Assembly (NCBI RefSeq): GCF_026586665.1
Contig: NZ_JAODIY010000045.1
Coordinates: forward strand, 1 to 45,401
Source: Halovenus rubra
GTDB lineage: Archaea > Halobacteriota > Halobacteria > Halobacteriales > Haloarculaceae
Reading direction: 5' to 3'
Length of the DNA stretch: 45,401 nt
In this document: in pieces, positions 6,873 through 35,132 of the stretch
Position numbering within the stretch: the stretch's first letter is position 1
How the letters are laid out: every line of letters starts with the position of its first letter
Notes under the pieces: generated by a model
Told to the model about the DNA's origin: nothing
What the model saw: only the letters and a program-made list of their open reading frames with translations
Databases searched by the model: none
Translations under genes and position numbers: made by a program

Positions 6873-6896
6873 CACGCATAGCCCCCGCTTTCTGCA

Positions 6897-6951
6897 TGAC
6901 ATCCTCCCCGGCGTGAACGCCGGGGTTTCCTCCGGGGGAGTCTCAACCGGT
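6897..6951 (-). ncRNA. Candidate omega-RNA (right-end RNA) of TnpB element 1
   Basis: In IS605-type elements the guide (omega) RNA is read from the 3' end of tnpB across the right end. Here the region after the tnpB stop contains the GGAGGAAACC segment and a strong terminal hairpin before the TGTCA end, matching the layout of element 2 (GGAGGAATTCC plus hairpin). The guide would be the flanking sequence beyond 6897. The call rests on position and folding only. Confidence 0.4.
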
Positions 6952-8292
6952 CTACGACTCGCCGGAGGCAACATTCCCGTCACGGTGGACGGTACTCGGG
7001 TCTGTGCGCTGTTCTTTGGGACGGTGAGAGCGTGGTGACTCCGACCAGTCGTGGTCGTCCCACTCAAACCGCACGGGCCGTGCCATCGGCCTGACCGCTT
7101 CCTCTGTGTGCCGCTCTAGGAATGTTTCCGACGCTGTAAGGTCGGCGTGCCCCTCGAACCCACACGGACAGGTGAGTGTGTCCTGATGCCGTGTCGTTCG
7201 GACTGTCGAACCACACTGCGGGCATTCCTGACTGGTCCACGCCTCTGACCGGACTTCGACCGTGATACCGTATTCTTCGGCAGTACAGACCAGTCGCTCG
7301 GTGAATTGCTTGAATGCCCAAAAGTTATGGGTCTTGGCGTTTGTCTCGACCGACCAATGCGTGTCCAGTACGTCGGTCAACCCGCCGATATACAGTGTGT
7401 CCACGCCTTCGGCGTACAGTCGTTCCAACAGGTCACGACACAACGCTTCCTGAGCGTGGTCCCGGCGACGAGTCCGTTTCTGGTACAGTCGCCGGATACG
7501 CTTGCTACTGTATCGGCCTTCTTCGAGTTTCGACTGTAACCGGGCGATTTCTCGCGTCGTGTCGCGGAATCGCTGGAACAACTCGCGGCCTTCGTACAGG
7601 TATTGCTCGCCGGTCGTAGTGGTACAGGCGACGAGATTGTTTGCACCAATGTCCAGAGCGGCCGTCTCTTCGGCCAGTGGAGTATCCCGTGTCTCGTCAG
7701 AAACAGTCACGGGTTGCGAAGCCCTGAACGTGCTATCAGTCTCGTCGTACCACAGGTCTAACCGACCCTGTTTCTCGTACTCGGGCCAGTTCGGGTCGCC
7801 AGTGATTTCCAAACGGAGACGCCCAGTGTGGTCGTATCGGTCTTTCAATTCACTCCCGACCAGTATTTCGAGTCGGGAGCGTTCGCCCCATTCGACGGTG
7901 TACGACGTGTTGCGGATGACGGTATGGAGTTTGCGGCCCTCGTCTTTGTTGCCCCAGAATCCCGGTGGTTCCGGGTATTCAGTGACGGACGTATCCGAAT
8001 CGTCGTGATACGCTTTCTTGTTCTCGAAGAATCCGCGCCATGCTTCGGAGTTCTTCCGTATCACCTGTTGGGCGGTGGACGCACCGAGGACGCCTTTGTA
8101 TTTGCCTTCGAGTCGGCCTGTATCGGCGTCCCACACGTCTTCGTTTTCGTATCCGCCTTCGTCGTTGTACCGCATGAGGCGTTCGTAGTTGACTTCGTTC
8201 CAGAGAGCAGCGGAAGCGTCCAACAGGTCGCGTAGCAGTTGCTCTCCGGTATCGGAGAGCGGTCGCACGGCGAACGTGTTGGTACGCTTCAC
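6952..8292 (-). CDS. tnpB: TnpB (IS1341-type), RuvC-like nuclease family, copy 1
   Basis: This 446-aa protein has an N-terminal wedge/recognition region, a RuvC-I motif [11 protein letters not shown] with Asp near residue 213, a helical bridge rich in Arg/Lys ([13 protein letters not shown]), a zinc finger (CPQCG...CPCG) near residue 365, and RuvC-III GHADL with Asp near residue 381. The position normally holding the RuvC-II Glu (V-E-D/N-L in characterised TnpBs) reads YIGGL, so Glu is replaced by Gly. A glutamate is conserved instead in VRSEAWTS just before the zinc finger in both copies here. Known relatives are RNA-guided nucleases. This one may use a shifted catalytic Glu, or be inactive and bind only. 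It is divergent from a 47-aa RHH gene. Confidence 0.88.
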
Positions 8293-8314
8293 GACGACAG
8301 ATTATTATACTTTT

Positions 8315-8334
8315 AGTCTTTAAGTCTTTTCGTC
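8315..8334. promoter_or_regulatory. 8-nt-period (A/C)GTC repeats between tnpB and the RHH gene
   Basis: Two perfect 8-nt units (AGTCTTTA, AGTCTTTT) and a partial third (CGTC) abut the RHH start codon, just downstream of the AT-rich TATTATAC segment. The same layout with four units occurs at element 2 (34862-34890). Tandem short repeats are typical operators for RHH repressors. Confidence 0.55.
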
Positions 8335-8478
8335 ATGCGTCCCAACATCGATATTTCACACACGCTCGGTGGCCGAGTCAAAGACTACGCAGAAGCGAAC
8401 GATTTGGACCTCTCGGAAGGCTATGCAGAGGTGTTAAAAGCAGGTCTGGAAGCGTTGGAGACTCAGAACCAGCAGTAA
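8335..8478 (+). CDS. 47-aa ribbon-helix-helix protein, divergent from tnpB
   Basis: The protein starts MRPNIDISHTLGGRVKDYAE. A short beta strand (NIDISHTL) is followed by two helices (GGRVKDYAEANDLD and SEGYAEVLKAGLEALE), the length and layout of a minimal RHH domain. A homologue with the same start (MRPNIDI) and position occurs at 34891-35034 beside the second tnpB. It is probably an autorepressor that controls both divergent genes through the intervening 8-nt repeats. It lies inside the element, before the left-end hairpin. Confidence 0.7.
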   Translation: MRPNIDISHTLGGRVKDYAEANDLDLSEGYAEVLKAGLEALETQNQQ

Positions 8479-8594
8479 CACGACGGTTTCCCACCGGAGC
8501 TTACGCGATTCACGCCCGCCGTGAACGGCGGGACTCTCTCGCTGTTGAAAGGTGTCTCTTCGCAAAGTTTCAGCCAGTATCTGGTGTGCTGTCG

Positions 8595-9136
8595 TCACCC
8601 AGAGAAGTCGCTGTACGACACCGCACCCTGGTCGACGATTGTCTGGCTCTCGGGGACCTCTCCGTCTGGCGGCATACTTCCCCCCGCGGGACCACCGGGC
8701 TCGCCGACAACGATACGACCGACCATATTGAGGCCCTTGTGCAGGGTACAGAAGTAGTCGTATGTTCCTGCAGTCTCGAAGGTGTGTTCGAAGGTCGCGC
8801 CCTGTTCGCTGAGTATCCTGCTGTCGAAGGCTTCGGCCCCGTCAGGGGATGCGTGTGACTGATGCCTGTCCGTTCCCCTTCTTGTATGCTGTCGCAGAGT
8901 GGCTGCCACTATTGTTCTCGAACGTGACGGTTTGACCGGATTCGACGAAGAGCCCGATTGGATCGAAGTAATACTCGCTTCCCTTAGTGACCATTAGTAC
9001 CGTGTTCGTATCCCCGTTCGAATGGTGTATCCGTCTTACCGCTTGCGTCGGGGTTCGAGCTACTACAGCCAGCGAGCCCGGTGAGACCTGCGGTTGCCGC
9101 GACGCCACCTGCTTTTAGTACCTGTCGACGCTCCAT
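8595..9136 (-). pseudogene. Halocyanin/plastocyanin-like blue copper protein, two frameshifts
   Basis: The pieces in three frames join into one lipoprotein-type copper protein. The N-terminus MERRQVLKAGGVAATAGLTGLAGC carries a twin-Arg-like signal and a lipobox Cys. Next come YFDPIGLFVESGQTVTFENNSGSH (first His ligand) and, in a third frame, GTYDYFCTLHKGLNMVG with the Cys, His and Met ligands of a type 1 copper site. The two breaks fall at four-base homopolymers (9012-9015 and 8845-8848); removing one base at each restores the frame. This is therefore either a recent pseudogene or two homopolymer sequencing errors. It is divergent from the multicopper oxidase and a plausible electron carrier partner. 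Confidence 0.72.
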
Positions 9137-9241
9137 ACCTGACCGTCGGCACGCCATTGATAGACCACTTGGGCGGATTCCCACCGCTCGGGATTCCGCC
9201 GTCGATTGACCGTCACCACTCTCGAAATTCCACCCATAACA

Positions 9242-11152
9242 ATGAGTGATCGCCTTAGAGCGCCCGGCACCGGCATTTCACGGCGAGAATTCATCGTAGC
9301 GGCGGGCAGTGCTGGCGCGCTAAGTCTCGCAGGGTGTGCAGCCCCGACCGGTAGTACAGGAACCCCTTCACACCCAACTGACCAGAGTACAGAACCCCCC
9401 TCACAGCCAACCCCGACTGACCATTCGTCGCCCGAGCTCGAAAAGTGGGTTGCGGAAGTCCCCCGTCCAGGTGTCGTGGAACCGGTCGGGACGAAAAACG
9501 GGAACCCTTATTACGAGGTGGAAATGCGCGAGATCGAGCAGCAGATCCACCCTGATCTTCCCCCAACGACTGTCTGGGGGTACGACGGCCAGTGCCCGGG
9601 GCCGACGATCGAGGCTCGGCAGGGTGACCCAATCTACGTGCGCTGGAAGAACAAGCTGCCGGACGAGCATCTCCTGCCGGTCGATACGACCATACACAGC
9701 AGCACGATTCCCTACGACAGTACCGGCGTGCGGGTCGTGACTCACCTCCACGGCGGGAACGTCGAGCACACGAGCGACGGCAAGCCGAAGGCGTGGTTCA
9801 CGCGGGATTTCGAGCACACCGGCCCGAAGTTCGAGAAGAAGGACTACTACTACGTCAACGACCAGCCCCCGGCCACGCTCTGGTATCATGACCACTCGCT
9901 CGGCATCACTCGACTGAACGTCTACGCCGGTCTCGCCGGACTCTACCTCCTCCGGAACAATCACGAGGAGTCTCTCGGTCTGCCGTCGGGCGAGTACGAG
10001 ATTCCCCTGGTGCTCCAGGACCGCAGTTTCAACGAGGACGGCTCGTTGTTCTACCCGACCGCCATCTCCGGGACGGACAGCGACCCGCCGAACCCCGACC
10101 CGAGCATCGTTCCGCAGTTCTTCGGCGACACGTCCGTCGTCAACGGGAAGGCCTGGCCGCGGCTTTCGGTCGACCCCCGGAAGTACCGATTCCGCATCCT
10201 CAACGGCTCGAACAGTCGATTCTATAACCTCAAGCTGTTCGAGTACGACGAGTCGGACGGAACGACCGGCACGGGCGGGCCACCGTTCACCCTCGTCGGC
10301 AACGACGGTGGGCTACTGGCCTCACCGGTCACGATCGAGGAGCGACTGGAGATCGGCACGGGCAAGCGTGCCGACGTCGTCGTTGACTTCTCGGACTACG
10401 CCGGACAGACACTCTTGGTACACAACGACGCCGCGGCGCCCTACCGTGGACCGAACATCAATACCGGGGGTCAACAGCCGCTGCCGGAAGTGATGCTCAT
10501 CGACGTCGCCGTCGGTGATATCGACGACCCTAGCCAGGTTCCGAATACGCTGACGGACGTGCCCGACATCCCCGTCGACTCGGTTACCGAGGAACGGTAT
10601 CTCCCATTGACCATGAGTACCGACGAGTACGGACGACGATTGCACCTCCTGGGTTCGGATGCGGAGTCCTCGCCCCACAGGCTGTACGACCCAGTTACCG
10701 AGGAGCCCACCCTTAACGACACGGAAATCTGGAGCTTCGCGAATCAGACAGGCACGTCCCACCCGATGCATCTTCACCTCGTGCACTTCCAGGTGCTCGG
10801 GCGACAGCCGTTCAGTGAGTACGACCCCGAAGCGGAGACGATCGATGTCGAGGCCCTCGAACCCCCCGCACCGGAAGAAACTGGCTGGAACGACGTCGTC
10901 ACGGCGAACCCAGGGGAGGTAACCCACGTGCTCGTGCACTTCGGCGAGTTCGAGGGGCTATTCAACGACCAAATCGGCTGGTATATGTGGCACTGCCACA
11001 TGCTCGAACACGAGGACCACGACATGATGCGGCCCTTCAGCGTACTGCCGGATTCTGCCGACGATATCAATGACGATGACGGATCCAGCGATTCACCGAA
11101 ATCAATACCCGGATCGAGAAACTCAACGAGCGGTACGCACCCGGCTGAATGA
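9242..11152 (+). CDS. Multicopper oxidase (laccase/CotA-like), exported lipoprotein
   Basis: This 636-aa protein has a Tat-type signal (SRREFIVAAGSAGALSLAGC) with a lipobox Cys and a Ser/Thr/Pro-rich linker, so it acts outside the cell membrane. All four copper motifs are visible: HLHGGNVEH near residue 168, WYHDHS near 213, HPMHLHLVHF near 505, and WHCHMLEHEDHDMM near 583, with the type 1 Cys, flanking His and axial Met. It couples one-electron oxidation of substrates (phenols, Cu(I), Mn(II) or bilirubin-like) to reduction of O2. The ATG at 9242 gives the twin-Arg signal; longer starts do not add recognisable sequence. Its likely role is copper tolerance or extracellular oxidation. Confidence 0.9.
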   Translation: MSDRLRAPGTGISRREFIVAAGSAGALSLAGCAAPTGSTGTPSHPTDQSTEPPSQPTPTDHSSPELEKWVAEVPRPGVVEPVGTKNGNPYYEVEMREIEQQIHPDLPPTTVWGYDGQCPGPTIEARQGDPIYVRWKNKLPDEHLLPVDTTIHSSTIPYDSTGVRVVTHLHGGNVEHTSDGKPKAWFTRDFEHTGPKFEKKDYYYVNDQPPATLWYHDHSLGITRLNVYAGLAGLYLLRNNHEESLGLPSGEYEIPLVLQDRSFNEDGSLFYPTAISGTDSDPPNPDPSIVPQFFGDTSVVNGKAWPRLSVDPRKYRFRILNGSNSRFYNLKLFEYDESDGTTGTGGPPFTLVGNDGGLLASPVTIEERLEIGTGKRADVVVDFSDYAGQTLLVHNDAAAPYRGPNINTGGQQPLPEVMLIDVAVGDIDDPSQVPNTLTDVPDIPVDSVTEERYLPLTMSTDEYGRRLHLLGSDAESSPHRLYDPVTEEPTLNDTEIWSFANQTGTSHPMHLHLVHFQVLGRQPFSEYDPEAETIDVEALEPPAPEETGWNDVVTANPGEVTHVLVHFGEFEGLFNDQIGWYMWHCHMLEHEDHDMMRPFSVLPDSADDINDDDGSSDSPKSIPGSRNSTSGTHPAE

Positions 11153-33422: not shown

Positions 33423-33496
33423 TCATCTATCTCTCTATCCCTGCGCTGTATAGCGGTTGTTAAGACCGAAATGGGAATTCCGTAATAATCGAGGGT

Positions 33497-33547
33497 TGAC
33501 ATCCTCCCGCGGCTGAAGCCGTGGAATTCCTCCGGTGGGGATGGTGG
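33497..33547 (-). ncRNA. Candidate omega-RNA of TnpB element 2
   Basis: After the tnpB stop the minus strand reads GGAGGAATTCC and then a terminal hairpin (CCACGGCTTCAGCCGCGG) up to the TGTCA end, as in element 1. The guide would extend into the flank between the element and the NicO gene. Confidence 0.4.
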
Positions 33548-34846
33548 CTATCCACTCATGGAGGCAAGTTTCCCGTTGCCGGTACTCCGGTTTGTGCGCT
33601 CCTCGTTGGGACGTACCCTCTCGGGAGAGGATGATGCCTCCGACCAGTTGTGGTCGTCCCACTTGAGGCGCACGGGCCGTGCCATCGGCCCGACGTCCGA
33701 TTCGCCAGCCTGTCGTTCGAGGAACGTCCGCGAAGCGTCGAGGTCGGCGTGTCCCCTGTAGCCGCACGAACACCGAAACACGTCGCCGTCTCGGTTTGTA
33801 TCGTCGCGTTCACCACACATCGGACACTCCGCCGTCGTGTACGCTTCCGATCGCACTTCGACTGTGATGCCGTACTCCTCGGCGGTCGTCGCAAGCCGGT
33901 CGATGAACGAGCGATACGCCCAGAACTGGTGGGTCTTCTCGTTCACCTCGGCGCTCCAGTGTGTCGAGAGGACATCGGTGAGGTCGCCCACGTACACCGT
34001 CGCCACGCCTTCGTCGTACAACCGTTCCATCAAATCTCGCACGAGGGCTTCCTGTGCGTGGTCACGCCGTCGCGTTCGCTTGCGGTACAAACGTCGAATC
34101 CGGCGACTACTATACCGTCCCTCGCGGAGTTTCGACTGCAAGCGGGCGATGTGCTCGGTGGTTTCGCGGAAGCGGGCGAACAGGTCGCGGCCGTCGTAGC
34201 AGTACTGCTGGCCGGTGGTGGTAGTACAGGCGACGAGATTGTTCGCGCCCACGTCCAGCGCGGCTGCTTCTGAAGCCAGTGGTGAATCCTGTCGAGAATC
34301 GGGCACAGTAACAGGCTGAAAGGCCCTGAACGTGTCGGTCACCTCGTCGTACTGTATCTCCAAGCGGCCCTGTTCGCCGTCCCATTTCGGAGCGCCGCAC
34401 ACTTCGAGGCGAAGGCGGTCGTGATAGCCAAGTCCGTACTCGTCTTTGAGGGCTTGGCCGACCGGGATTTCCAGCCGTGAGCGCTCGCTGATTTCCAGCG
34501 TATATTGGTCGTTTCGGATGTACGTCCGCAATTCCCTGCCATCGTCTTCGTTACCCCAGTAGCCCGGTGGGGCGGTGTCCTCGCCGTTTTCGCGGGCGGC
34601 GAAGAACGACTGCCAAGCCGATGTGTTCTTTCGAATCACCTGCTGTGCGGTGGCAGAGCCGAGAACGCCGACGTACTGTTTGCGGTAGTCGGCGGTGTCC
34701 CACACGCTGTCGCCGTCGAAGAAACGCTGGCGGCGTTCGTAGTTCAACTCGTTCCACAGGCTGGCCGAGGCATCCAACAACTCGCGGAGCAGGTGCTCGT
34801 CCTCCTCGGAGAGTGGGCGGATCGCGAACGTGTTGGTTCGCCTCAC
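33548..34846 (-). CDS. tnpB: TnpB (IS1341-type), RuvC-like nuclease family, copy 2
   Basis: This 432-aa protein is closely similar in layout to copy 1. RuvC-I reads [11 protein letters not shown] (Asp near 198), the bridge region [13 protein letters not shown] is present, the zinc finger is CPMCG...CSCG, and RuvC-III reads [11 protein letters not shown]. The RuvC-II position reads VYVGDL, with Gly replacing the usual Glu; VRSEAYTT before the zinc finger keeps a Glu, as in copy 1. It is therefore probably a lineage with an unusual or shifted active site rather than a one-off mutation. The C-terminal tail ([15 protein letters not shown]) is also shared. Confidence 0.88.
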
Positions 34847-34861
34847 GACAGTATCTATTTA

Positions 34862-34890
34862 CGTCTCAACGTCTTAAAGTCTATTGGTCG
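34862..34890. promoter_or_regulatory. Four (A/C/G)GTC repeats with 8-nt period between tnpB and RHH gene
   Basis: Units start at 34862 (CGTCTCAA), 34870 (CGTCTTAA), 34878 (AGTCTATT) and 34886 (GGTCG), ending at the RHH start codon. Compare the two to three units at 8315-8334. Likely operator for the RHH protein. Confidence 0.58.
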
Positions 34891-35034
34891 ATGCGTCCCA
34901 ACATAGACATCACCCACACGTTGCACGGTCGAATCAAAGACTACGCCGAGGACAAGGAGATGGAGCTATCCGAAGCGTACTCCGAACTGCTTGAGCGAGG
35001 ACTTGAAAGCGTGGCACATCCAGATGAATCGTAG
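34891..35034 (+). CDS. 47-aa ribbon-helix-helix protein, divergent from tnpB copy 2
   Basis: It begins MRPNIDITHTLHGRIKDYAE and has the same strand-helix-helix layout as the protein at 8335-8478, about half the residues being identical. The conserved length, start and position beside tnpB argue that it belongs to the element. Probably an autoregulatory DNA-binding protein. Confidence 0.72.
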   Translation: MRPNIDITHTLHGRIKDYAEDKEMELSEAYSELLERGLESVAHPDES

Positions 35035-35132
35035 CGCGTAGACTGACGGGCCGTGCTGTCGCTCAGACCCACCCCCGAAGAGATGGGCTTCCGCTCGTCC
35101 CGTTCAAGACAGTAGGGGATCAATTGGGGAGT

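Follow-up and report, generated by a model that had tools for sequence, protein, structure and literature searches.

A candidate ribbon-helix-helix autorepressor of tnpB, with an array of 8-nt repeats, in a haloarchaeal IS1341-type element

In a 45,401-nucleotide stretch of DNA from the haloarchaeon Halovenus rubra, which was analyzed whole and is referred to here as the window, positions 8293-8478 are likely to constitute a self-contained regulatory cassette of an IS1341-type (IS200/IS605) element, in which a 47-amino acid ribbon-helix-helix (RHH) protein would serve as an autorepressor of tnpB. This reading draws on the gene, its repeats, their linkage to tnpB, their co-occurrence, the geometry of the promoters and purifying selection, all of which can be read directly from the sequences. 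An earlier note on this DNA had proposed that the element carries its own transcriptional control of tnpB; gene, repeats, linkage and promoter geometry agree with that proposal, and the control itself is our interpretation of them. The relevant features, in element 1 and in a second, diverged copy of the tnpB-RHH arrangement within the window (33496-35097), are as follows.

6896..8530, no strand assigned: element 1, approximate extent, from similarity to other copies and an inverted repeat
6952..8292, minus strand: tnpB of element 1, 446 amino acids, GTG start, divergent from the RHH gene
8302..8309, plus strand: TTATTATA, TATA-like box of the RHH gene, at about -33 to -26 relative to the ATG
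8316..8334, plus strand: operator-like array of element 1, three GTC half-sites in 8-nt steps
8319..8323, minus strand: tentative TATA-like box of tnpB, AT-rich, at about -31 to -27 relative to the GTG
8335..8478, plus strand: 47-amino acid RHH gene of element 1, from the open reading frame, predicted fold and dN/dS
33496..35097, no strand assigned: element 2, approximate extent, from similarity limits common to many copies
33548..34846, minus strand: tnpB of element 2, 432 amino acids, 65% identical to tnpB of element 1
34863..34897, plus strand: operator-like array of element 2, five GTC half-sites
34891..35034, plus strand: RHH gene of element 2, 47 amino acids, 62% identical over 42 residues

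The elements and their two proteins

Similarity of element 1 to other copies begins at 6896 and stops at 8518-8553, and the element has a GC-rich palindrome (about 6915-6945) and a subterminal hairpin (about 8511-8530). The tnpB gene at 6952-8292 matches the NCBIfam model guided_TnpB (E 5.9e-47), and the locus falls within the IS1341 group of the IS200/IS605 family in that its TnpB has the RuvC triad and a zinc finger and in that tnpA is absent between the similarity limits of element 1, as it is between those of element 2. Rfam gave no omega-RNA match at gathering score, sot0042 and sot2652 included. Beside element 1, on the minus strand at 8595-9184, lies a copper-binding (plastocyanin-like) gene that is seemingly split over several frames, and this in turn is adjoined by a multicopper-oxidase-like open reading frame at 9206-11152.

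TldRs, which are nuclease-dead TnpB-like repressors, likewise link a TnpB locus to transcriptional repression. In their case the repressor is the TnpB homolog itself, whereas here TnpB keeps its catalytic residues and is the putative regulated gene. In this haloarchaeal clade, which has a DIG motif, the canonical RuvC-II glutamate position is occupied by a glycine, and the glutamate is found instead at an alternative position, E350, six residues before the first zinc-finger cysteine, as in Fanzor-like enzymes. Such a position has been described for Fanzors and some TnpBs (PMC10711439). E350 is present in 80 of 80 relatives, as is D214, and D384 in 79 of the 80. Given this conservation, the TnpB of the element 1 clade is probably not catalytically dead, and a TldR reading of the locus was ruled out on the same residues.

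AlphaFold2 predicts the 47-amino acid protein (pLDDT 87.5) to consist of an extended segment (residues 1-8) followed by two helices (9-21 and 26-45), and the top-ranking Foldseek matches in the PDB are mostly RHH proteins (MatP, CopASO, CopG, MazE6, CdbA, SvtR), with E-values of 0.14 and up and probabilities of up to 0.92. The strand-helix-helix order of this predicted monomer, together with the RHH matches, bears out the fold assigned in the earlier note. No curated RHH model in Pfam or NCBIfam matched the protein, its sequence matches are weak (ArtA, TraM, MatP), and a PHROGs search likewise returned weak matches only, to families mostly of unknown function; judged by predicted fold, the protein would belong to the RHH superfamily while standing outside any described sequence family. 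In an alignment of 29 diverse members, M1, R2, P3, G13, L26, Y30 and G37 are invariant; within the strand, the invariance of R2 and P3 and the near invariance of D6 are compatible with a two-stranded dimer ribbon that would insert into the DNA major groove. Pairwise dN/dS across the RHH family has a median of 0.23 and is always below 1 (2594 non-independent pairs), indicating that the gene is under purifying selection.

Repeats in the divergent promoter

The intergenic stretch of element 1 (8293-8334) reads GACGACAGATTATTATACTTTTAGTCTTTAAGTCTTTTCGTC, with the ATG of the RHH gene following at 8335. The array is laid out as AGTCTTTA-AGTCTTTT-CGTC followed directly by ATG; its GTC half-sites occupy 8316-8318, 8324-8326 and 8332-8334 in an exact 8-nt step, and the last of them abuts the start codon. 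Of the (A/C)GTCTNNN units previously described, the exact 8-nt period and the termination at the RHH start codon hold, but the consensus fits two units only, the third being CGTC plus ATG rather than CGTCTNNN. The array of element 2 is longer and extends past the RHH start codon, with half-sites at 34863, 34871, 34879, 34887 and 34895, all steps being exactly 8 nt. The exact element 1 operator has its sole location in its own genome at element 1, and a search allowing up to three mismatches recovers element 2 and one further site; this scarcity of matches is evidence against a large host regulon.

By itself the element 1 array is weak and near chance (TRF score 33, a purely local repeat test), and TRF finds it to be one of 12 arrays of comparable size in the 45 kb. 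Since the local test was unconvincing, the case for the array was built on comparison between loci. Intergenic regions were clustered at 70% similarity into 13 clusters, in which distances between GTC/GAC triplets were counted: the 8-nt distance was counted 20 times where dinucleotide shuffling predicts 0.70, a count that no shuffle out of 2000 attained, and the 9-nt distance was counted 8 times against a predicted 0.69, while distances of 16 (9), 17 (9), 24 (5) and 25 (4) are enriched as well. The 13 clusters are related by descent and consequently do not represent 13 independent events; once compared with related loci in this manner, the element 1 array is far beyond chance, and the spacing spectrum upholds the operator-like character that had been ascribed to the 8-nt repeats.

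At least two half-sites stand in register in 115 of 119 loci, and at least three in 105. Their orientation differs by subtype (>>> in element 1, >>< in the largest subtype, <<< in another), and number and orientation shift between subtypes while the 8/9-nt step is constant. In the two largest clean subtypes, conservation is higher in half-site columns than elsewhere in the spacer (0.967 vs. 0.861 and 0.978 vs. 0.888), and in the gap-45 subtype mixture it is hardly higher (0.725 vs. 0.697). All 6 clusters of RHH subtypes with HTL at residues 9-11 step by 8 nt throughout, and 6 of the 7 clusters of the other subtypes include a 9-nt step (hypergeometric 0.004, hand-computed, post hoc and on related sequences). 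Covariation between repeat and RHH protein, which the earlier note had put forward as a check, is accordingly seen weakly and in spacing only, 8 vs. 8/9 nt by subtype; the GTC core is invariant across subtypes.

With regard to promoter geometry, 72% of protein-coding transcripts in Haloferax volcanii lack a leader, some of them starting with GUG, and TTWT is given as the TATA motif of haloarchaea (PMC4983044). It follows that a block of GAC, AT-rich sequence and GAC, present on the tnpB strand at about -35 to -24 in nearly all clusters, lies where the tnpB TATA box is expected. In element 1 the tnpB TATA-like box, a poor match to TTWT, sits between the first two half-sites and is bracketed by them, and the array fills the stretch from the TATA-like box of the RHH gene to its start codon.

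Linkage, co-occurrence and exchange of the cassette

Of 391 genomes of the class searched with the 47-amino acid protein, 120 had matches, spread over 46 of 86 genera. A tnpB lies on the opposite strand within 700 nt in 130 of 147 haloarchaeal RHH loci (116 of 122 among those with at least 60% RHH identity), a strict linkage that agrees with the earlier note's 'TnpB-linked'. The start-to-start distance in 111 clean-start loci is 40-60 nt, mostly 40, 42-45, 48 or 51. Among plasmid records the gene occurs in haloarchaea only, as hypothetical or not listed, and it was not found in phage records. Sixteen RHH loci without a detected tnpB have no clear array at the start codon, two of them (L118 and L124) having 8-nt GTC/GAC pairs farther upstream; in L118, at 1612-1700, the RHH homolog is divergent from an open reading frame other than tnpB. 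Partly degraded element copies (L027, L042) retain parts of the array.

To view the association from the side of TnpB, 80 close TnpB loci were gathered from genome contigs regardless of the RHH gene, and 78 of these had usable upstream sequence: 31 have the RHH gene, 27 no small gene, 14 a different small divergent gene and 6 a tnpA, upstream of tnpB and in series (for the last two groups the loci were labeled manually, going by their sequences). Of the promoters with the RHH gene, 24 of 29 contain an 8-nt G(A/T)C pair, vs. 1 of 26 same-clade promoters without the gene (Fisher 1.4e-9, relatedness not corrected), 0 of 14 promoters of the other small gene and 0 of 6 tnpA loci. The co-occurrence of repeats and gene, which the earlier note had offered as a check, is thus found. 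The generality of the module across related elements fared less well: about 60% of close relatives lack the RHH gene, which is therefore dispensable, and absence from most related elements, named beforehand as telling against the proposal, applies to the gene by about half; still, loci without the gene lack the repeats as well.

These promoters bear on whether the periodic triplets, rather than being an operator, belong to the ordinary basal sequence (TATA/BRE) of a pair of overlapping promoters and were retained through descent, a reading that we consider very unlikely. Although the spacers are AT-rich and at promoter positions, and the clusters are of common ancestry, the RHH-less tnpB promoters of the same clade also need basal elements and all but one lack the array; moreover, the step persists through changes of half-site orientation and number, and the TATA and BRE motifs published for haloarchaea do not include GTC (PMC4983044).

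It is unlikely, to a lesser degree, that the RHH protein acts primarily as an antitoxin-like partner, binding and restraining the TnpB protein or its RNA complex, with autoregulation secondary. The strict RHH-tnpB pairing would suit such a partner, and RHH proteins are common as antitoxins, several being among the Foldseek matches, but this one is a bare RHH domain whose short, variable tail overlaps the left end of the element, many elements have a same-clade TnpB without RHH, the genes are divergent rather than an operon, and the promoter array covaries with the RHH gene. A type II toxin-antitoxin module in particular was ruled out on the divergent gene order and the short, variable tail. 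Highly improbable, and the least likely of the three, is a part in transposition or end binding, as a TnpA stand-in or targeting factor, with the repeats as a recombination site: the RHH gene does occupy the place of tnpA in divergent IS605 elements, and the element is without tnpA, but the array lies in the promoter, away from the element ends, RHH-less relatives retain the same left end, including sequence resembling the last RHH codons, and RHH domains are not known to be catalytic.

Mapped on the TnpB tree, the RHH label changes 16 times, at least 9 of them forced by supported branches, from which we conclude that the presumptive autorepressor cassette is often lost or exchanged. In locus L218, the DNA of tnpB shares about 90% identity with elements that have the other small gene; this identity ends at the tnpB start codon, and similarity resumes where the small gene has its 3' end. 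The RHH gene and GTC array lie between these two points, an arrangement that looks like a natural cassette exchange. On these comparisons, the module is not a fixed part of IS1341-type elements but a cassette that is often lost or swapped. Close relatives with and without the cassette, along with the L218 swap, render the question directly testable.

The other divergent gene upstream of related tnpB encodes 44-47 amino acids (MSNHVNIEVPDDEQYERIKRVKNEHGLTWRGMLIHAADDLE) and is found in loci L210-L212, L217, L219, L221, L223-L226, L229-L231 and L233. Its product is predicted to have an extended start followed by two helices (pLDDT 83.7); no convincing fold match was found for it, and profile comparison did not connect it to the RHH family. 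Its promoter has a short palindrome in most copies (e.g., CTACG-6-CGTAG or AGATAT-2-ATATCT). We entertain as a serious possibility, somewhat short of a probable one, that haloarchaeal TnpB elements carry exchangeable repressor cassettes, each a small gene with its matching operator, moving between tnpB backbones as units and setting nuclease level and copy number in trans, of at least two kinds: RHH with the 8-nt GTC array, and the second small protein with a palindromic promoter.

Proposed mechanism, known systems and variant loci

Under the proposed mechanism, RHH dimers would bind the row of GTC/GAC half-sites in 8-nt steps (8/9-nt in some subtypes), a row that lies in a divergent promoter of roughly 42 bp and spans both the tnpB TATA-like box and the TATA-to-start stretch of the RHH gene. 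Since predicted dimers on the array would cover both promoters, we infer an autoregulated repressor: dimers bound cooperatively would obstruct TBP/TFB or RNA polymerase at each promoter, and the protein would repress tnpB and itself, keeping the guided nuclease low. It could also act in trans on other copies, like plasmid CopG or omega, and sense copy number in doing so. Dimer binding, repression and copy-number sensing are all inferred steps, and the protein may activate rather than repress. Same-subtype RHH copies coexist in one genome (e.g., L045 and L047 in G069); incompatibility between such copies is not claimed, as they were seen by eye to share genomes.

The protein would work like MetJ, omega/ParB and CopG. 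MetJ, the methionine repressor of E. coli, likewise places RHH dimers on contiguous 8-bp units, but its boxes are palindromic and S-adenosylmethionine is needed, whereas the haloarchaeal protein has one GTC half-site per unit, only 47 amino acids, no co-repressor domain and a place in a TnpB element. CopG of the plasmid pMV158 family is a bare RHH autorepressor of the 45-amino acid class (Foldseek 1b01, 1ea4), but it represses a plasmid replication gene and no sequence similarity to the 47-amino acid protein was detected; its operator is a symmetric element. SvtR of the archaeal virus SIRV1 (Foldseek 2kel) is similarly a small RHH regulator of an archaeal mobile element, but one that targets viral genes and has no divergent tnpB. 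The omega/ParB protein of pSM19035, which serves copy control, also binds short, contiguous units that may face either way and overlap promoters (PMC9499535). It differs in its 7-bp units, longer arrays, partition role with ParA and lack of a TnpB.

A search of open-licence papers returned no description of a TnpB-linked RHH protein. RHH autorepressors on tandem operators are known, and an element-internal one that serves tnpB is, to judge from this search, apparently new. Control of TnpB level has been described mainly as omega-RNA processing; an element-borne transcriptional repressor would, if true, add a second layer, and the RHH protein with its array would make a very small archaeal repressor-operator pair. 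For haloarchaeal IS1341-type elements, 'stringent copy number control' has been suggested without a mechanism, and the RHH cassette is a candidate for it (PMC3119063).

Two variant arrangements of the family were observed. In L142-L144 and L151-L155, the RHH domain is the N-terminus of open frames of about 350-490 amino acids, with no tnpB nearby and no Pfam domain in the rest of the frame. In eight loci (L035-L038, L043, L052, L055 and L061), a zinc-ribbon-like gene of about 74 amino acids separates the RHH gene from the tnpB promoter and overlaps the RHH start codon, giving a three-gene version of the cassette in which the GTC array precedes the zinc-ribbon-like gene.
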